Part shown: positions 22,697-60,884 of the stretch, one piece after another
Layout: every line of letters begins with the position of its first letter
Numbering within the stretch: the stretch's first letter is position 1
Assembly (NCBI RefSeq): GCF_022484225.1
Contig: NZ_JAKVLT010000001.1
Coordinates: 372,001 to 436,000, forward strand
DNA from: Pseudoramibacter sp.
GTDB taxonomy: Bacteria > Bacillota > Clostridia > Eubacteriales > Eubacteriaceae
Length of the DNA: 64,000 nt
Reading direction: 5' to 3'
Notes under the pieces: model-generated
What the model saw: the letters and a program-made list of their open reading frames with translations, nothing else
Told to the model about the DNA's origin: nothing
Databases searched by the model: none
Position numbers and translations under genes: made by a program

Positions 22697-24052
22697 ATGT
22701 CAAAAACAAATTCAAAACAAGCATCCCATCCGATGCAAAACCAGCCGGAACGGGCTGAGCTGCTCAAGCGCCTCAGCACCCTCACCGGCGAAGGGGAAGA
22801 CGAAAAGGCCCATCTGGAACTCCAGGACGTCTTCGACATGGACCTGCTCCAGCGCATCCAGGACGCCTTTTCCGACGCCACCGGGGTCGCGGTGATCATC
22901 GTCGACCGCCACGGACGCCCGGCCCTGAAATACAGCAACTTCACGGCCTTCTGCACGGCGATCCGCACCGTCCCGGAATACTACAAATACTGCACCAACT
23001 CCGACGACTGGGGCGGGCGCAACGCCAACAGCGTCCACCGTCCCCGGATCTACCGCTGCCACGGCGGCCTCGTCGACATGGCGGTGCCGATCCAGGTGCG
23101 GGGGGAATACATCGGCGCCATCCTCGCCGGCCAGGTCCAGATCCCGCCGGAAGAGGCGGCGACTCTGCCCCACGGCGCCCCGGGCTGCCCCACGGATTTC
23201 TCGGCCCATCCGGAATTTTTAAAGCTGCGCAAAAACGTCTACCACTCGACGTTAAAGCGGGTCCAGGGGGCGGCGGACCTCATGTTCACCATCGCCAACT
23301 ACCTGGCGGAGCTGTCCGCCTCCCGGATCATGCAGGAAAAGCTTCAGCGCACCAACGAAAGGCTCATGATGGAAATGCACCGGCGCAGCGAGGCGGAATC
23401 GGCGTTGAGAGAGGCGGACCTGCGCGCCCTCAAGGCCCAGATCAACCCCCATTTCTTTTTCAACGTCCTCAACACCATCGGCCGCCTGGCCATGCTCGAA
23501 GGAGCGACCCAGACCCAGGAAATGGTCTACCACTTTTCGGACCTGCTCCGCTACACTTTGAAGTCCGGGGAAAATGACTTCGTCAAGCTCAAAGACGAAA
23601 TCGACAACGCGAAGAACTTCCTCCACATTCAGAAAGTGCGCCAGGGGGATCACCTGCAGTTTGACTTCGACTGCGACGAGTCCTTAAACGAATCCTTCTG
23701 CCCCTTCATGGTCATTCAGCCCTTCGTGGAAAACGCCATCAAGTACGTGGTGGAAGCCCGGAAGGAAACCTCCGCCATCACCATCAAGACCGAAGCCGAC
23801 GGCAGAGACATCCTCATCCACATCGTCGACGACGGGGACGGCATCCCCGACGCCACCATCGACGCCCTGCTTGGCGAACACGCCCGCACCGGCAAAACCG
23901 AAAAGGGCATGGGCATCGGCATGCAGAACGTCAACAAGCGCCTGCGCTACTACTACGGCAAACCCTACGGCGTTTCCTACGTCAAGGGGCTTCCCTCAGG
24001 CACTCATGCCATCATCCGGATTCCCAACAAGACCCTGCCGGAATCCCGTTAA
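22697..24052 (+). CDS. Soluble sensor histidine kinase with PocR domain
   Basis: 451 aa with no membrane segment. Residues about 45-190 match a PocR sensory domain: FCTAIRTVPEYYKYC, YRCHGGLVDMAVPI and GAILAGQVQIPPEE, with conserved cysteines that may hold a ligand or metal. A short coiled coil leads to a LytS/YesM-type His_kinase region with the phospho-acceptor in QINPHFFFNVLNTI (about 247-260) and an HATPase domain with FVENAIKYVV (N box) and DDGDGIPD. PocR domains are known from the propanediol regulator PocR and many C1/alcohol-metabolism regulators. With the downstream response regulator it forms a cytoplasmic two-component pair. Its ligand is unknown. Confidence 0.9.
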   Translation: MSKTNSKQASHPMQNQPERAELLKRLSTLTGEGEDEKAHLELQDVFDMDLLQRIQDAFSDATGVAVIIVDRHGRPALKYSNFTAFCTAIRTVPEYYKYCTNSDDWGGRNANSVHRPRIYRCHGGLVDMAVPIQVRGEYIGAILAGQVQIPPEEAATLPHGAPGCPTDFSAHPEFLKLRKNVYHSTLKRVQGAADLMFTIANYLAELSASRIMQEKLQRTNERLMMEMHRRSEAESALREADLRALKAQINPHFFFNVLNTIGRLAMLEGATQTQEMVYHFSDLLRYTLKSGENDFVKLKDEIDNAKNFLHIQKVRQGDHLQFDFDCDESLNESFCPFMVIQPFVENAIKYVVEARKETSAITIKTEADGRDILIHIVDDGDGIPDATIDALLGEHARTGKTEKGMGIGMQNVNKRLRYYYGKPYGVSYVKGLPSGTHAIIRIPNKTLPESR

Positions 24053-24081
24053 TCACTCAAGGAAATTAGAAAGAGGTCGTC

Positions 24082-25140
24082 ATGTATAAGATTTATATTG
24101 TAGAAGATGAACATTTGGAAAGAAAGGCCCTGCAGATGATTTTAAACGGCCAGGCGCCCAACGTGAAAATCGTCGGCACCGCGGCCTCGGGGAAGGACGC
24201 CCTCAAGGGCATCGAAGAAACCGACCCCCAGATCATTCTCATGGACATCAACATCCCGGAAATCAACGGCATCGAAGTGCTGCGCCGGGTCAAGAAGGCC
24301 GACCCTGAAAAGAAGGTCATCCTCATCACCGCCTTCAACGAATTCGATTTTGCCCACCAGGCCATCAAGGCGAAGGTGGACGACCTGCTCCTGAAGCCGA
24401 TCCGCCCGGAACAGCTCATCGCGTCCATCAACCAGGCCATCGAAAGCCTCCAGGCCAACACCCGCAGCAACATCGACGAAAAGATGAGCGAAATCATCTA
24501 CGCGGTGGTGCACAAGAAATACGCCCAGTGCCGCAAGACGGTTCAGGCCTATCTGGATCTCCTCTACGACCACTACGGCTTTGATTTGATCTCGATTCAG
24601 AAAGAAGTGCAGCGCCTGATCAAGGAGCTGCAGAACGTCGCCAACGACAACGGCGGCTACGAAATCGTCTCGCCCCTTAAAAACACCAGCGGCCACAAGC
24701 ATTTCGCCCGCCAGTTCCAGAACCGCTACAACCTCCGGGTCGAAATCATGAAGGTCATCGGCAAGATCTTCGACCACATGAAAACCAACCCCGAACGCAA
24801 GAGCTCCATCGAGGACATTTTGAACTACATCGACCGCAACGCCGCCAACGACATCTCTCTGGAACAGGTCGGCGAGTACGCGAACATGAGTTCTTATTAC
24901 TTATCCAAAATCTTCAAGAAAGAAACCGGGATGAACTTCGTCACCTACCTGACCCAGCAGAAGATCCAGATCGCCAAGGACATGCTCGTGAACACCGACA
25001 CGCCGATCATCAACATCGCCCTCGACCTGTCCTACCACGAACCCAATTATTTTTCAAAAGTATTTAAGAAAAACGTCGGCATCACCCCGACGGCCTACCG
25101 CAAAAAATACCGCAGTAAAACCGCCGCAGCGGAAGAATAA
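24082..25140 (+). CDS. YesN-type response regulator with AraC HTH
   Basis: 352 aa. The receiver domain has IVEDEHLERKAL, the phospho-acceptor Asp in ILMDINIPEINGIEVL (about residue 54), TAFNEF and the Lys of LLKPIRPEQL. Residues about 250-345 form an AraC-type double helix-turn-helix: VGEYANMSSYYLSKIFKKE and YHEPNYFSKVFKKNVGITPT. It starts 29 bases after the kinase stop with AGAAAGAGG upstream and would be phosphorylated by it. Its targets are unknown; the convergent activator/DUF2229 cluster is the nearest candidate, but I see no obvious operator repeats. Confidence 0.93.
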   Translation: MYKIYIVEDEHLERKALQMILNGQAPNVKIVGTAASGKDALKGIEETDPQIILMDINIPEINGIEVLRRVKKADPEKKVILITAFNEFDFAHQAIKAKVDDLLLKPIRPEQLIASINQAIESLQANTRSNIDEKMSEIIYAVVHKKYAQCRKTVQAYLDLLYDHYGFDLISIQKEVQRLIKELQNVANDNGGYEIVSPLKNTSGHKHFARQFQNRYNLRVEIMKVIGKIFDHMKTNPERKSSIEDILNYIDRNAANDISLEQVGEYANMSSYYLSKIFKKETGMNFVTYLTQQKIQIAKDMLVNTDTPIINIALDLSYHEPNYFSKVFKKNVGITPTAYRKKYRSKTAAAEE

Positions 25141-25168
25141 AAAAAGGACCAATGGTCCTTTTTTTATG
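25141..25168. terminator. Bidirectional terminator between the regulator and activase genes
   Basis: AAAAAAAGGACC-AAT-GGTCCTTTTTTT is symmetric, with a short GC core and A/T flanks serving both convergent genes. It overlaps the stop codon of the activase gene (25164-25166). Confidence 0.8.
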
Positions 25169-26135
25169 CGTGTTTCGCCTGCCTTGCGGTGATGTCCCCT
25201 TTTTCGCAGCGGTTGCCCCAGTTGTCGATGAGCTTTCCGTCCCGGTAGACGCAGATGATCTCGCAGCGGTTGGGGCACTGGCCGCAGATCACTTCCCGGG
25301 TCTTGAAGGCCACGTTTTCGATGCCGAAGTCGAAGGTTTTTCTGGCGTCGTGGTGCTTCGCGAGAATGGCCGCGCCGATGGCCCCCATGAGGTGCCCGTT
25401 TTCGTCGACGATCACCGGCGCCCCGAGGGCCTTTTCAAAGGCCTTCACCACGCCGATGTTCTTGGACACGCCCCCTTGAAAAACAATGGGCTCTAAAATG
25501 CGCTTGCCCTTGCCCACGTTGTTGAGGTAGTTGCCCACCACCGCCTCGCAGAGCCCGGCGACGATGTCTTCCTTGGTGTGGCCCATCTGGATTTTGTGCA
25601 CGAGGTCCGATTCGGCGAACACGGTGCACCGGGCCGCGATGTGGGTCGGGTGGGCCGACTTCAGGGCCACGGCCCCCATGTCCTCCACGGGAATGCCCAG
25701 GCGCCGGGACTGGGACGACAGAAAGGCGCCGGTGCCCGCCGCGCACAGGGTGTTCATGGCGTAGTCGATGGCGATGCCGTTTTCCAGCAGGATGATCTTC
25801 GAATCCTGGCCGCCGATTTCGAGAATGGTTCTGACGTCCGGGTGATAGGCCGTCGTCCCCACGGCGTGGGCCGTGATTTCGTTCTTCACCACCGTGGCGC
25901 CGAGCATGGCCCCGACGAGCTTCCGGGCCGAGCCCGTGGTGCCCGTGGCCACGACCTCCCAGGCTTCGCGGTCAAACTGGGCGCCTAAATCTTCGATGAG
26001 GCGCTTCACCGCGCCGATGGGGTCCCCTTCGGTCCAGATGTAGGCCGAGGCCAAAAGGTTCTTGTCCCCGTCCATGATGACGCCTTTGGTCGAGATGGAC
26101 CCGACGTCGACGCCAAGATACGCTTCTTTTTTCAT
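25164..26135 (-). CDS. ASKHA-type activator ATPase of the HgdC/BadF family
   Basis: 323 aa from ATG 26135, overlapping the upstream stop (ATGA). It has the sugar-kinase/actin-type ATP motifs GVDVGSISTKGVIMD and LEIGGQDSKIILLENG, and the two cysteines that bridge a [4Fe-4S] cluster in HgdC dimers, in NTLCAAGTGAFLSS and RCTVFAESDLV. Activators of this family use ATP to push an electron at very low potential into a dehydratase or reductase partner. An added C-terminal segment with CGQCPNRCEI and a further Cys in NRCEKGD may bind another metal centre. The partner is probably the pair of DUF2229-like proteins encoded upstream, not a classical HgdAB. Confidence 0.88.
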   Translation of the reverse strand: MKKEAYLGVDVGSISTKGVIMDGDKNLLASAYIWTEGDPIGAVKRLIEDLGAQFDREAWEVVATGTTGSARKLVGAMLGATVVKNEITAHAVGTTAYHPDVRTILEIGGQDSKIILLENGIAIDYAMNTLCAAGTGAFLSSQSRRLGIPVEDMGAVALKSAHPTHIAARCTVFAESDLVHKIQMGHTKEDIVAGLCEAVVGNYLNNVGKGKRILEPIVFQGGVSKNIGVVKAFEKALGAPVIVDENGHLMGAIGAAILAKHHDARKTFDFGIENVAFKTREVICGQCPNRCEIICVYRDGKLIDNWGNRCEKGDITARQAKHA

Positions 26136-27217
26136 GAGATCACCTTTCTTCGCATCGCGATCATATCGTAGAACGCCTCCAGCCGGGTCATGAGCCCCGC
26201 CGTGGCGGTTTCCGTGTCGTAGGTTAAAAACAGCACCGGGATTTTGTAGTCCTCGGAGATGCGGCGCAGCACTGGCATGATTTCGATCTCCGGCGTGCAC
26301 CCCGCGGACTTGACGTGGATGATGCCGTCGAAGCCGTCCTCCGCGTACTTCTTCGCCTTCCAGATGTTGGCCGTGGACGTGGGCCCCATTTCGTAGCGGC
26401 AGTAGTCTTTGATCGCCACGTGGAGGTTCTTTTCCCCGGGGTAGTCGAGATTGCGGTGGGAGACGTTCATCCACCGGTGCACCTCGACCCCCATGTCCGC
26501 CAGGGCCTGCTCGAGATCCAGGTTCGAGAAGGCGTCCATCACCGTGAAATATTCGCCGATGAGGCCGACTTTCAGCACCGGCGCTGCTTTGCGCACCGGC
26601 AGGGTTTCAAAAGCCTCGAGGCAGGTGTGATACCCCTTTTCGATGTCCTTGCGGCTTTTCGCCGAGGCCATGGCCTTGAAAAACCGGTTCAGGGCCTTTT
26701 TAAAGCTCCCCTTTTCGGTTTCAAAGCCGCAGTTCATGTAGTACTGGCATTCCGCCTCGTCGATCTTTCGGACCATGTCCAGGGCATCTTTCATGGCCTT
26801 GAGCACCTTCGCCGGCCGGGGATGGGGCGTGAGGGCCTTCAGCGCCTTTAAGTAGTCCTTGGGGCGGCCCGTGGTGTACTCGGCGAAGTTCACGTAATCG
26901 AAGGTGTAGCCCTGCTCCCTTAAAATCGACTCGGCGAGCTCGCCGTAATAGCCCAGGCGGCAGTAGCCCATGGTCATGATCAGGGTGTCGGCCCCGGCTT
27001 CCAGGGCTTCGATCATGGAGCCGAGGATGGTTTTAAAGGGCGTGCACACCATGTCCGGGGCGAGTTTTTCCCCGAGGGCCATGGTCCGCCGGGTCATGGC
27101 CGGCTGCATCACGTAGGTCTGGCCCAGCCCCCGTTCGATGAAGTACTTCACCGCCGGGTTGTAGTGGGCGATCATCGGGAAGGCGACTTTGCGCTTCGGC
27201 GTTTCCTTTCGGCTCAT
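26132..27217 (-). CDS. HgdB/DUF2229-like protein 1 (putative Fe-S reductase subunit)
   Basis: 361 aa, overlapping both neighbours by 4 bases. It resembles the DUF2229 (acyl-CoA dehydratase activase-related) / 2-hydroxyacyl-CoA dehydratase beta fold. Cysteines lie in DMVCTPFKTILG, MGYCRLGYYG, QYYMNCGF and SAGCTPEIEIMPVL, and the C-terminal block VLFLTYDTETATAGLMTRLEAFYDMI closely parallels the next gene (VLTVDAQSGTAGLETRLESFLDIL). These cysteines could ligate an iron-sulfur cluster. The protein is much smaller than the fused 1,400-residue activase/DUF2229 proteins of other anaerobes. The reaction and substrate are unknown. Confidence 0.75.
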   Translation of the reverse strand: MSRKETPKRKVAFPMIAHYNPAVKYFIERGLGQTYVMQPAMTRRTMALGEKLAPDMVCTPFKTILGSMIEALEAGADTLIMTMGYCRLGYYGELAESILREQGYTFDYVNFAEYTTGRPKDYLKALKALTPHPRPAKVLKAMKDALDMVRKIDEAECQYYMNCGFETEKGSFKKALNRFFKAMASAKSRKDIEKGYHTCLEAFETLPVRKAAPVLKVGLIGEYFTVMDAFSNLDLEQALADMGVEVHRWMNVSHRNLDYPGEKNLHVAIKDYCRYEMGPTSTANIWKAKKYAEDGFDGIIHVKSAGCTPEIEIMPVLRRISEDYKIPVLFLTYDTETATAGLMTRLEAFYDMIAMRRKVIS

Positions 27218-28167
27218 GCGTTTTCCCCCTTTCCTGCCCTGCGGCGCAGGGTCAGAATATCCAAAAAAGATTCCAGCCGGGTTTCAAGGCCCGCGGTGCC
27301 GCTCTGGGCGTCCACGGTCAGCACGAGAATCGGCACGCCGCTGTCCTTGAGTTTGCGCACGATCATGTCGTCCACCATGGAATCCAGGGCGCACGGGTAG
27401 ACGCTCATGAGGATGATGCCGTCGGCCCTGCTGTGATGCATGGCGATGGACCCGGCGATTTCCCGGGACACCTCCCATTTCATCGTCGGGGAAAACTGCC
27501 GGGCGGCGCGCCGGGCGGACCGGCGGTCCACGGCGTCGGCCAGAATGACTTCAACCCCCTTGGACTTTAAATACTGGATCACCGGCCGGCCGTAGTAGGC
27601 GTCTTCGGTGACGTAGCGGTGGGCGCCTAAAATGATCTTGAGCCCCGGCGCCTTGTACTGCTTTTCGGCCCTTTCGACTGCCGCCCCGTCCCGGGCCTTC
27701 TGGGCGGCGAGCCCCGCCTTCCAGGCCTTTTTCGCCGCCTTCCGGGAAAAACCCAGCGCCCGGCCCATGGCGATCATGGCTTCTTCGTGGCCGACGCCTC
27801 CCTGGACGTTCACGTTGTAGGACAGCACCTTGAGGCGCTGATCCCGGAACACGTTGGCGGCGATGTCCGGCAGCCCTTCAAAGGTCGTGCACATGACCCG
27901 GCGGATGCCGAAGTCGACGATCCGGGGCACCAGCACCGCGTCGCACTTCCCGATGAGGGACGCGACGTGGCCGAGGTAGACTTTCAGAGACAGGCACATC
28001 TCGTCCGCCGCCGCCTTGGCGCCGGCTTCGGCGGTGACCCGGTCCGTGGGACCGGACACCACGGTATTGATGCCCAGGGTCTTGAAATAGGTCTGCCACA
28101 GGGTCCCGTACCGGTGGTACAAAAGCCCCCGGGGAATCCCCACGGTGATAGGTTCTGGCTTTGCCAT
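27214..28167 (-). CDS. HgdB/DUF2229-like protein 2 (putative Fe-S reductase subunit)
   Basis: 317 aa from ATG 28167 (AAAGGAGG upstream); the longer frame has no site. It starts ITVGIPRGLLYHRYGTLWQTYF, the usual opening of DUF2229 proteins, and carries DEMCLSLKVYLGH, VMCTTFEGLPD and VYPCALDSMVDD, each parallel to a Cys block in the neighbour at 26132-27217. The two are therefore paralogues likely to form a heterodimer, energised by the ASKHA ATPase encoded last in the run. Family knowledge suggests an ATP-driven, low-potential two-electron or radical chemistry. No CoA-ester gene lies nearby to show the substrate. Confidence 0.75.
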   Translation of the reverse strand: MAKPEPITVGIPRGLLYHRYGTLWQTYFKTLGINTVVSGPTDRVTAEAGAKAAADEMCLSLKVYLGHVASLIGKCDAVLVPRIVDFGIRRVMCTTFEGLPDIAANVFRDQRLKVLSYNVNVQGGVGHEEAMIAMGRALGFSRKAAKKAWKAGLAAQKARDGAAVERAEKQYKAPGLKIILGAHRYVTEDAYYGRPVIQYLKSKGVEVILADAVDRRSARRAARQFSPTMKWEVSREIAGSIAMHHSRADGIILMSVYPCALDSMVDDMIVRKLKDSGVPILVLTVDAQSGTAGLETRLESFLDILTLRRRAGKGENA

Positions 28168-28411
28168 TGCGGCCTCCTTTAATAAAAAATCAAAAATAAG
28201 AAATAAAAAAGACACGGCAGAAGCCGCATCTTGTTCCCCTCTGCGGCGCACCGGCAGAAAGCCGATACACGCGCGACGCCGGCCGCCCTCATCTCCCCCT
28301 AATGAGTGTGGGCTTTCGGCATCAATATCTCCAATTTGTTTACATTATAACATACTTATTTTTACAAGACTACACTTTTCCAAATTTTACTCTATTTATT
28401 TGTCTGACCAC

Positions 28412-28455: not shown

Positions 28456-28558
28456 AGCAGAGTAGGATCGGGCGCGTCAAGTGCCGGCTGAACGGGGAGT
28501 TGTCAGCCGGACGAAAAGCCAAAGGCTTACGGTGCCCCTTCCGCATCCCGTTGCTACT
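28456..28558 (+). promoter_or_regulatory. Tetrahydrofolate riboswitch
   Basis: Conserved THF-riboswitch blocks occur in order: AGAGTAGG, GCGCGTCAAGTGCCGGC, GGGGAGTTGTCAGCCGG, a variable stem (AAGCC/GGCTT), CGGTGCCCC and GCATCCCGTTGCT. The following gene encodes a FolT-like folate transporter, the classic target. Folate binding should shut expression through the hairpin at 28570-28610. Confidence 0.88.
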
Positions 28559-28569
28559 TCCGAGATCGT

Positions 28570-28610
28570 CTCCTTTGTAGCGAAGGACCTGCTGCAAAGG
28601 AGGTTTTTTT
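28570..28610 (+). terminator. Riboswitch expression platform: terminator that also hides the Shine-Dalgarno
   Basis: CTCCTTTG (28570-28577) pairs with CAAAGGAG (28595-28602), followed by G and seven Ts (28604-28610), and ATG follows at once at 28611. The 3' arm contains the AGGAGG of folT (28598-28603) and the T-run is its spacer, so one hairpin could stop both transcription and translation. Confidence 0.8.
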
Positions 28611-29135
28611 ATGTCATCAATCCATACCATCCACACCAGACGGCTCGTCACGGCCGCCCTTTTCGTCGCCCTGGCGACCATTCTGTCTTTCTTTTCCATC
28701 ACCGTCACCTCGACTCTGGAAATCCGGTTCAACAGCCTGGCCATCGCCGCGGCGGGCATTCTCTTAGGCCCGTGGTACGGCGCCGCCGTGGGCGCCCTGT
28801 CCGACATCATGGGCTACATGGTCCACCCGTCCGGGGCCTTTTTCCCGGGCTTCACTTTGAGCTACGCCCTCATCGGCCTCATCTTCGGCCTCATCGCCCA
28901 CAAACAGGCGTCGGTGTCCCGGGTGCTCATCGCCCAGGCCGTCGTCACCGTGGGCATCGACATGCTCCTGAACACCTTCTGGCTGTCCCTGATGTACGGC
29001 AACGCCTTCGTGGTGCTCTTCGGCGCCCGACTGATCAAGAACGTCGTCCTCTACCCGCTGTACGCCTTTCTCCTGTGCGTCGTCGCCGGCCCGGTGCGCC
29101 AGCGCTCCGCCCAGTTTCTCACGAAACTCAATTAA
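28611..29135 (+). CDS. folT: Folate-specific ECF transporter substrate-binding subunit
   Basis: 174 aa with about six hydrophobic helices. LVTAALFVALATILSFF opens TM1, and FNSLAIAAAGILLGPWYGAAVGALSDIMGYM and HPSGAFFPGFTLSYALIGLIFG (read as separate helices) are typical of FolT and related ECF S components. It would bind folate outside and pair with the shared EcfA1A2T module, which is not in this window. The THF riboswitch upstream strongly supports the substrate. It is monocistronic. Confidence 0.92.
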   Translation: MSSIHTIHTRRLVTAALFVALATILSFFSITVTSTLEIRFNSLAIAAAGILLGPWYGAAVGALSDIMGYMVHPSGAFFPGFTLSYALIGLIFGLIAHKQASVSRVLIAQAVVTVGIDMLLNTFWLSLMYGNAFVVLFGARLIKNVVLYPLYAFLLCVVAGPVRQRSAQFLTKLN

Positions 29136-32365: not shown

Positions 32366-32625
32366 CAAAAAAAACGTCCCTCTTTGAATCATTCAAAAAG
32401 GGACGATAACATTCATTACCGCGGAACCACCCGCATTGGCCGCAAAACGGCCCGCTTCATTTTAAGGGTAACGGCTTCCCGGGCAGCCCTAAGGGCTTCA
32501 GACTGCCAGCTCCGAAGTGATCCGCATCTTGATGGCACCGGCAGCCTCTCAGCCATAAGCCGCCTCTCTTTGATGCCGTGGGACAAAATGCCGTCTTCAT
32601 CAACGCTTTTGCAATTTAATTATGA
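32366..32625 (-). promoter_or_regulatory. T-box riboswitch (isoleucine) upstream of ileS
   Basis: The leader contains the T-box GGGTGGTTCCGCGG (a TT variant of the usual core), a terminator hairpin CGTCCCTTTTTGAA/TTCAAAGAGGGACG followed by eight Ts, and stem I with AGAGAGGC. ATC (isoleucine) at 32519-32521 lies in the same context as ACC in the thrS leader, so it is the likely specifier. Uncharged tRNA-Ile would permit read-through into ileS. Confidence 0.92.
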
Positions 32626-59453: not shown

Positions 59454-60884
59454 TTACGCAATGTCGCTGGATTCTTCTTCGGCCCGTTCTTTTTCACGTT
59501 TTTCAGATGCTTTTTCCAAACGGTCGCGTTTGGCGATGTAGCGGGCTTCTTCAGGGCTGCCGTCCCACATGTCGTGAGCCACAGGCGCCCAGTTTTCAGC
59601 GTATTTCTTGGTCTTGGCGACGAGATCGTCAACCGGTTCCGGCGCTTCGAGGTCCGTGGAGTGGGCTCCGGTCTTCTTGACCATCTGAGGCAGGATTTCC
59701 GGATTTTCGAGCATCGGGCACGGTCTCAGCATGTTTTCGTTAAAGGGCTGGCCGTCGTGATAGGCCATGAAAAGCGGTGAGCGCAGCGCATCCAGCAGGG
59801 ATTTTTCGCGGATGTTGGAATCCGAATAGTGGATGAACACGCAGGGGTCGACGTCGCCGTTGGCGTTGATGTGCAGGTAGCGGCGGCCGCCGGCGATGCA
59901 TCCGCCGACATATTCCGCGTCGTTCTGGAAGTCCATGGCGAACAGCGGTTTTCTGTTGCGGTAGTCGCGGATTCTCCGGTGCATTTCCACACGCTGTTCC
60001 GGGGTAACCATGAGTTCCGGCACGGCGTTGACGCCGGTAGGCATGAAGTGGAAGTACCACACGAACAGGGCGCCGAGATCAATCATCTTGTCGTAATACG
60101 CTTCAGAGGTGATGGATTCGAAGTTCTGTCTGGTGTAGCAGCAGGAGAAGCCGAAGGGCAGATTTCTTTCTTTCAAAAGCTTCGTGGCTGCGATAACTTT
60201 GTCGTACACGCCGTTGCCGCGGCGGGCATCCGTCGCTTCTTCAAAGCCTTCGAGGGAAATGGCCGGGATGAAGTTGCCGACCCGTTTCATTTCATCGGCG
60301 AAGTGGGCGTCCAGCAGCGTCCCGTTGGTGAAAGACAGGAACATGCAGTCGTCGTGTTTTTCGCAGAGTTTGATGAGGTCGTCCTTGCGGACCAGGGGTT
60401 CGCCGCCGGTGTAGATGTACATGTAGACGCCGATTTCCTTGCCCTGGCGGATGATATCGTCGATTTCGTCAAAGCTCAGGTTCAGCTTGTTGCCGTATTC
60501 TGCGGCCCAGCAGCCGGTGCAGTGGAGGTTGCAGGCGGACGTCGGGTCCAGCAGGATCGCCCATGGGGCGTTGCAGCCGTATTTATGGCGCACTTCTTCC
60601 TGTTTGTCCCAGCCGACGAGGTTGGCGTTCATGAAGAAGTTCACGAATGCTTTCTTTAATACATTGGAGTCCATGTGGACAATTTTCATGACCATCGGGT
60701 GATACGGATGGTTTTCGTCGTTGATGGCTGCGCGGATCGCATTTCTCTGTCCGACGAATTCCCCGTGGGAAAACTTATCGACCCAATTCATGACGCGGGG
60801 CAGGTTCTTTTCCGGGTTCTTGGTGAGCCACCCCACAACACGTTCGATACCGAATTTTTCTAAGTTATATTTGAATGATGCCAT
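59454..60884 (-). CDS. Radical SAM protein with SPASM-like C-terminal cysteines
   Basis: 476 aa. The radical-SAM cluster motif CNLHCTGC (about residues 117-124) sits after an unusually long N-terminal helical region of about 105 residues. YTGGEPLVRKDDLI is the SAM-binding GGE motif. Downstream cysteines in GGCIAGGRRYLHINANGDVDPCVF and LRPCPML suggest an auxiliary Fe-S cluster (SPASM/twitch type). The C-terminus is a charged helix. The family is common in anaerobes but the substrate is unknown; no precursor peptide gene is seen adjacent. A Fur-type box overlaps the promoter, so iron probably controls it. Confidence 0.88.
   Translation of the reverse strand: MASFKYNLEKFGIERVVGWLTKNPEKNLPRVMNWVDKFSHGEFVGQRNAIRAAINDENHPYHPMVMKIVHMDSNVLKKAFVNFFMNANLVGWDKQEEVRHKYGCNAPWAILLDPTSACNLHCTGCWAAEYGNKLNLSFDEIDDIIRQGKEIGVYMYIYTGGEPLVRKDDLIKLCEKHDDCMFLSFTNGTLLDAHFADEMKRVGNFIPAISLEGFEEATDARRGNGVYDKVIAATKLLKERNLPFGFSCCYTRQNFESITSEAYYDKMIDLGALFVWYFHFMPTGVNAVPELMVTPEQRVEMHRRIRDYRNRKPLFAMDFQNDAEYVGGCIAGGRRYLHINANGDVDPCVFIHYSDSNIREKSLLDALRSPLFMAYHDGQPFNENMLRPCPMLENPEILPQMVKKTGAHSTDLEAPEPVDDLVAKTKKYAENWAPVAHDMWDGSPEEARYIAKRDRLEKASEKREKERAEEESSDIA

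Follow-up and report, generated by a model that had tools for sequence, protein, structure and literature searches.

Within a 64,000-nucleotide stretch of the Pseudoramibacter sp. genome (contig NZ_JAKVLT010000001.1, positions 372,001 to 436,000; hereafter the window), three genes on the reverse strand, called B, A and C in the order of reading, form a translationally coupled operon at positions 25164-28167. The three products constitute a real, conserved member of the benzoyl-coenzyme A (CoA) reductase/2-hydroxyacyl-CoA dehydratase (BCR/HAD) family, which stands nearest to the plasmalogen synthase PlsA and its relative Ger and is not a double-cubane protein. They very probably act as an ATP-driven reductase of the BCR/HAD type, and on balance we favour a radical reductase whose substrate is an acyl group, i.e., an ester or thioester. 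Library models label the three proteins only as activase, DUF2229 or HGD-D, and no function for the B-A-C operon was found in the literature, where the search covered open-licence papers only and may have missed prior work.

Dehydratase-fold subunits and activase of the operon

Gene B (27214-28167, reverse strand) encodes a 317-residue subunit of the DUF2229/2-hydroxyacyl-CoA-dehydratase fold. Its start codon is the ATG directly 3' of AAAGGAGG, and the ribosome site is good. Gene A (26132-27217, reverse strand) encodes a paralogue of B with 361 residues, the second dehydratase-fold subunit, while gene C, which starts with the ATG at 26135 and reads down to 25164 on the same strand, specifies an HgdC-type ATPase of the ASKHA superfamily (acyl-CoA dehydratase activase) followed by a C-terminal Cys-rich tail. 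Stop and start codons overlap by 4 bp at both junctions (B/A, 27214-27217; A/C, 26132-26135). The coordinates of the three frames and their reading as one unit in the first-pass annotation are confirmed. The host genome is complete (1.97 Mb, one contig). In two sister species, the products share 93 and 85% (A), 85 and 67% (B), and 98 and 87% (C) amino acid identity with those of the host; a third related genome, which is incomplete, contains the operon in part. The genes are missing from one genome of the same genus, and the other Eubacteriaceae genera examined have no separate B gene, only a fused protein.

Product B matches Pfam DUF2229 with 131 bits. The matches of A to DUF2229 (30.0 bits) and HGD-D (32.7 bits) are barely above the cut-offs; in a wider set of A proteins, HGD-D is matched by 69 of 71 and DUF2229 by 60 of 71. 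Profile alignment of A with B by hhalign (E value 6e-32; 22% identity) bears out the earlier view that the two DUF2229/HgdB-like proteins are paralogues. The AlphaFold (AF2) models have mean confidence (pLDDT) values of 93.3 for A and 96.2 for B. When these were compared with the PDB, all 17 matches of A at an E value of 0.001 or lower were HadBC, the Bzd/Mbd proteins (BzdNO, MbdNO) or the double-cubane-cluster protein (DCCP). The top 13 ranks obtained with B were likewise HadBC, BzdNO, MbdNO and DCCP, with HadC and DCCP as the best; weaker, stray matches of B were a LacI-type regulator (E value 4e-4) and, right at the E value threshold, an entry for ZnuA. Both subunits are thus modelled with the two-domain HGD-D/DUF2229 fold of the BCR/HAD family.

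Among 71 diverse homologues of each subunit, the only invariant Cys residues are C58, C86 and C307 in A, and C58, C93 and C259 in B. These match each other one-to-one, or to within one or two columns, in the hhalign alignment, so that the parallel Cys blocks noticed at first have a precise counterpart in three mutually aligned residues per subunit. In the models, each cluster Cys lies at or beside a helix N-terminus, and in sequence-profile alignments the third Cys of both A and B coincides with a Cys that is conserved in HadC and DCCP. Two further residues of A, C157 and C163, are kept in three sister species and not further out. In BzdO and HadB, three Cys residues hold one [4Fe-4S] cluster whose fourth site is open, while BzdN and DCCP bind their double cubane through six Cys thiolates per subunit (PMC11971306). 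Based on the three invariant Cys residues, we predict one [4Fe-4S] cluster of the BzdO/HadB type, and not a double cubane, in each of A and B; a double cubane is rejected on the Cys count. The double-cubane proteins had initially been put forward as the nearest functional idea. This comparison is the weakest part of that reading, since PlsA and Ger are far closer and since A and B each reach 15 bits with NF040772, the NCBIfam equivalog for double-cubane proteins, which has a cut-off of 350.

The activase C matches BcrAD_BadFG (E value 1.9e-47) and TIGR00241 (191.5 bits), both above the cut-offs, and is homologous to HgdC (PDB: 1hux), HadI (PDB: 4eht) and the DCCP reductase DCCP-R (PDB: 7yyl). 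Its canonical cluster residues, C131 and C170, are invariant in 21 of 21 homologues, as are the four Cys residues of the tail (C284, C287, C291 and C310), and the description of C as an HgdC-like ATPase with an additional Cys-rich tail is therefore upheld. The tail is present in 31/31 activases of B-A-C type (BAC activases) and in 20/20 second activation domains (Act2) of PlsA, and in none of 14 HgdC-type activases or 16 first activation domains (Act1) of PlsA; as the presence of the tail had served to assign a few rows to BAC and not to HgdC, the clean split between these two classes is by construction for those rows, while the contrast between Act1 and Act2 and the 27 BAC rows that came from operons are independent of it. 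The features that characterize the BCR/HAD superfamily, i.e., the fold, at least three cluster Cys residues per subunit, and a neighbouring ASKHA activase that has two cluster Cys residues, were all found. The early suggestion that A and B could form an Fe-S heterodimer driven by the ATPase is supported as likely.

Relation to PlsA and occurrence among genomes

A fused homologue of 1417 residues is encoded in the same genome at 1933534-1937787 of the host contig, outside the window; its designation as PlsA-type is based on architecture and the presence of DUF2229. Some 0.7 kb downstream of the gene for this protein lies a cdsA-like gene (a name given by eye). Profiles of the separate proteins match the fused protein in order, with activase 1 at residues 5-260, activase 2 with its Cys tail at 319-635, the B module at 670-979 (E value 5.5e-41), and the A module at 1009-1390 (E value 3.6e-23). 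All six cluster Cys residues of A and B match Cys residues of the fused protein, whose domain order, Act1-Act2-Red1-Red2, is that described for PlsA (PMC12838417). The products are vinyl ethers, derived from sn-1 esters, in the case of PlsA and alkyl ethers in that of the related Ger (PMC13274423, PMC11150832). Judging from these profile alignments, PlsA and Ger appear to be the closest relatives of the B-A-C proteins, and the statement that such parts occur fused in one large protein in other anaerobes is supported. Each B-A-C cluster has one activase and not the two activation domains, either fused or as a plsA-plsR pair.

A tree of the ATPase core, from which the tail was left out, included four classes of activase (BAC, HgdC, PlsA Act1 and PlsA Act2). 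Each class occupies one side of a branch, with support of 96/91 for BAC; some branches are long, and the order of the classes is uncertain. The BAC activases fall outside the PlsA clades, and the BAC and PlsA activases of the same genomes are separate in the tree, which indicates an old, separate family and not a broken PlsA. On the basis of the tree, we reject an origin by fission of the fused PlsA that this host encodes. The term split, as used for the cluster in the first-pass annotation, is apt in that the genes are separate counterparts of the fused modules, and misleading if it is taken to mean fission of the fused protein of this host. Additional PlsA homologues without an activation domain, of unclear role, were reported from Bacillota in 2026 (PMC13274423); these may be A and B proteins whose activase lies one gene away.

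Presence and absence were surveyed in 391 genomes of the class Clostridia, with a threshold of E<=1e-25 for HGD-D. A-like genes were present in 117 (~30%), PlsA-type genes in 258, and HGD-D genes in 93. BAC and PlsA are independent of each other, with both in 71 genomes (Fisher p 0.16), and without eight weak PlsA matches the association is slightly negative (p 0.03); PlsA is missing from 46 of the 117 BAC genomes, and BAC from 187 of the 258 with PlsA. HGD-D is missing from 70 of the 117, so that BAC must do more than activate a standard dehydratase. The genomic overlap of the two exceeds chance (odds ratio 3.3, p 2e-6, relatedness not corrected). Dependence of BAC on either PlsA or an HGD-D dehydratase is rejected on this survey, and the first-pass reading withstands its own co-occurrence check, as the homologues are not always accompanied by a standard dehydratase elsewhere in the genome. 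The accompanying remark that no classical dehydratase is present is valid within the cluster and fails for the genome, which has an HgdB-like gene and a gene for HgdB fused to an activase at a distance of about 90 kb, in addition to the fused PlsA elsewhere. The former two, an HgdB-like gene of 419 residues beside one for a 582-residue protein that joins an HgdB-like domain to an activase (306000-309023 of the host contig, outside the window), are an unusual and unassigned pair of the 2-hydroxyacyl-CoA-dehydratase type.

Of 103 loci, 94 have exactly the gene order B-A-C, and the exceptions are mostly additional copies, loci with broken frames or loci at the end of a contig. Among the carriers identified by name are Eubacterium pyruvativorans, E. 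ramulus, Anaerotignum, Desulfosporosinus, Olsenella, Enorma and Adlercreutzia, and the operon was also found in many metagenome-assembled genomes (MAGs) of Bacilli and in two MAGs of candidate phyla. The loci L168, L173 and L154 comprise operons in Berkelbacteria and Staskawiczbacteria MAGs and a broken copy in a contig labelled Mycoplasmataceae, and may be binning errors.

Proposed reaction and competing explanations

In the BCR/HAD family, an activase homodimer with a bridging [4Fe-4S] cluster carries out an ATP-gated electron transfer to a dimer of dehydratase-fold subunits, in which ketyl-radical chemistry takes place. In the pathway proposed here, ferredoxin or flavodoxin would donate an electron to a homodimer of C, where it would be received by the [4Fe-4S] cluster that bridges the subunits (C131, C170), and the Cys-rich tail would perhaps provide an electron route or an extra entry cluster. 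ATP hydrolysis would push this electron at very low potential into an A-B heterodimer with one three-Cys [4Fe-4S] cluster per subunit, one of the two presumably having an open substrate site. The acyl group of an ester or thioester would most likely be reduced by way of a ketyl-type radical, as in PlsA and Ger. We regard the mechanism as fairly secure, while the substrate is one that we infer.

Several gene contexts hint at an acyl substrate. In E. ramulus (L131:6089-9289), a protein combining fatty-acyl-AMP-ligase, carrier and thioester-reductase parts ends 3 bp before B; in a Bacilli MAG, an AMP-binding acyl ligase is located 49 bp upstream of B; and a degV gene is directly upstream of B in six loci of one clade, in which the A proteins are 66-99% identical. 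DegV proteins bind fatty acids. These upstream genes, in probable operons with B, amount to at most three independent hints. Several points weigh against the acyl reading: most BAC loci have no informative neighbour, and no informative gene family, or any constant metabolic neighbour, recurs beside BAC across lineages among about 100 loci; BAC does not co-occur preferentially with PlsA; the deep divergence from PlsA (A module, E value 3.6e-23) leaves room for another substrate; and lipid or metabolite data for BAC strains were not found in the open-licence literature. A more specific version can be offered tentatively, namely that BAC is a separate, widespread ester- or thioester-reducing radical enzyme of anaerobes (Clostridia, Coriobacteriia, Bacilli and some bacteria of candidate phyla) with an acyl substrate unlike that of PlsA, e.g., for another ether, aldehyde or alcohol lipid, and placed in this genus under a new attenuator- or riboswitch-like leader.

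Four other explanations were weighed. In one, C would drive A-B to pass low-potential electrons to another metalloenzyme or a corrinoid, as a reductive activator or repair system lacking a small-molecule substrate of its own. ATP-dependent corrinoid activators exist, and a stand-alone operon with no constant metabolic neighbour would suit a housekeeping role; moreover, C scores 139 bits, under the cut-off, against methanogenesis marker 15, and a few B members match weakly. We consider this unlikely, given that A and B retain the full two-subunit architecture and the cluster ligands of the HAD and PlsA enzymes and that the operon shows no link to a partner metalloenzyme.

As a special case of the acyl-reductase explanation, the operon might encode a genuine split plasmalogen synthase or Ger that duplicates the fused enzyme in the synthesis of vinyl or alkyl ether lipids. 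The module-for-module match with its six Cys residues would agree with this, as would the genes found upstream of BAC in two MAGs, namely a fused PlsA-type gene in one of Desulfotomaculaceae (L148) and PlsA/PlsR-like genes in an Oscillospiraceae-like one (L130). The separate, supported activase clade, the lack of correlation with the presence of PlsA and the many PlsA genomes devoid of BAC make it quite unlikely. A classical 2-hydroxyacyl-CoA dehydratase of amino-acid fermentation with diverged subunits would share the fold and the activase, and the overlap with HGD-D genomes could be cited in its favour. It is nonetheless very improbable: the profiles place A and B much closer to PlsA than to HadBC, an NCBIfam scan of both at E<=0.001 gave no match, so the HadB and HadC equivalog cut-offs were not reached, fermentation-pathway neighbours do not recur among the BAC loci, and C has the PlsA-type tail that the HgdC-type activases lack. 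A DCCP-like double-cubane system reducing small molecules can hardly be upheld, because DCCP, despite being of the same fold superfamily and among the best fold and profile matches, requires twice the Cys thiolates that A and B keep, is homodimeric where A and B are two diverged subunits, and is represented by an equivalog that neither approaches.

If the favoured reading of B-A-C as an acyl reductase is true, anaerobes, gut bacteria included, would have a second way of making ether lipids, aldehydes or alcohols; the operon is carried by roughly 30% of the Clostridia genomes sampled. It would also offer a small, separable model of ATP-driven electron injection, which in PlsA is locked in one giant protein. 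PlsA and Ger are functional in E. coli by simple expression, and the self-contained three-gene operon therefore lends itself to a direct test.

Leader, neighbouring features and comparison with known systems

Upstream of B, an extended -10 box, TGTTATAAT, and a structured leader with three hairpins, the last of which is an intrinsic terminator, occupy 28205-28351 of the reverse strand. The leader, 138 nt in length (28205-28342), is conserved in the host and two sister species; each of these genomes has a single convincing copy, which stands before BAC. It folds better than shuffled sequences (z -4.3, -3.3 and -4.0), and the alignment pairs 92.5% of cells; with three sequences, covariation is weak (31/500 shuffles as good). 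No Rfam family matches it, and a search with a leader model in the genomes of the family and in the BAC loci returned only the three same-genus copies as convincing. The leader may attenuate transcription of the operon. A leader peptide ahead of B, read by eye, was rejected; its sequence differs between species.

The host's own gene neighbourhood says little about function. A PocR-domain histidine kinase and an AraC-type response regulator (22697-25140, forward strand) are convergent with the operon and kept beside it in sister species, and in related species the operon always adjoins a class III ribonucleotide reductase/two-component block. Divergent from the operon runs a folate-type energy-coupling factor (ECF) transporter S gene (28611-29135), which is preceded by a tetrahydrofolate (THF) riboswitch (28456-28604, forward strand; 93.7 bits) and then a terminator. 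A T-box leader upstream of ileS (32396-32612, reverse strand) scores 82 bits, under the gathering score of 93. A radical S-adenosylmethionine (SAM)/SPASM protein with no assigned NCBIfam equivalog is encoded at 59454-60884 (reverse strand). In three further genomes, its homologues are located at a distance of 4.5-12 kb from BAC, and across the genomes the homologues co-occur with BAC (odds ratio 3.3, p 4e-6, relatedness not corrected). Its PDB matches do not include a solved tetraether synthase; a role as a membrane-spanning lipid synthase was accordingly rejected, and the co-occurrence was not used as evidence. A selenium link suggested by an early STRING table (PMC5322559) was also discarded, as it concerns a different activase context.

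Among the known systems, PlsA/PlsR and Ger share with B-A-C an activase with a Cys tail (Act2), B-like and A-like reductase domains, and the six cluster Cys residues. B-A-C differs from them in consisting of three separate genes with a single activase, in forming its own clade, and in being independent of PlsA. HadBC with HadI likewise comprises two dehydratase-fold subunits with [4Fe-4S] clusters and a homologous, ATP-driven activase; however, identity is below 20% in the fold alignments, the sampled HgdC-type activases are tailless, and B-A-C is not part of a fermentation operon. Class I benzoyl-CoA reductase (BzdNO/PQ) has the same fold, and the single three-Cys [4Fe-4S] cluster of BzdO (PMC11971306) resembles that predicted for A and B, whereas the double cubane of BzdN, the heterodimeric ATPase and the CoA substrate set this enzyme apart. 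Finally, DCCP and DCCP-R have in common with B-A-C the fold superfamily and the activase partner, but DCCP is a homodimer with six Cys residues per subunit, while A and B are two subunits with three invariant Cys residues each.

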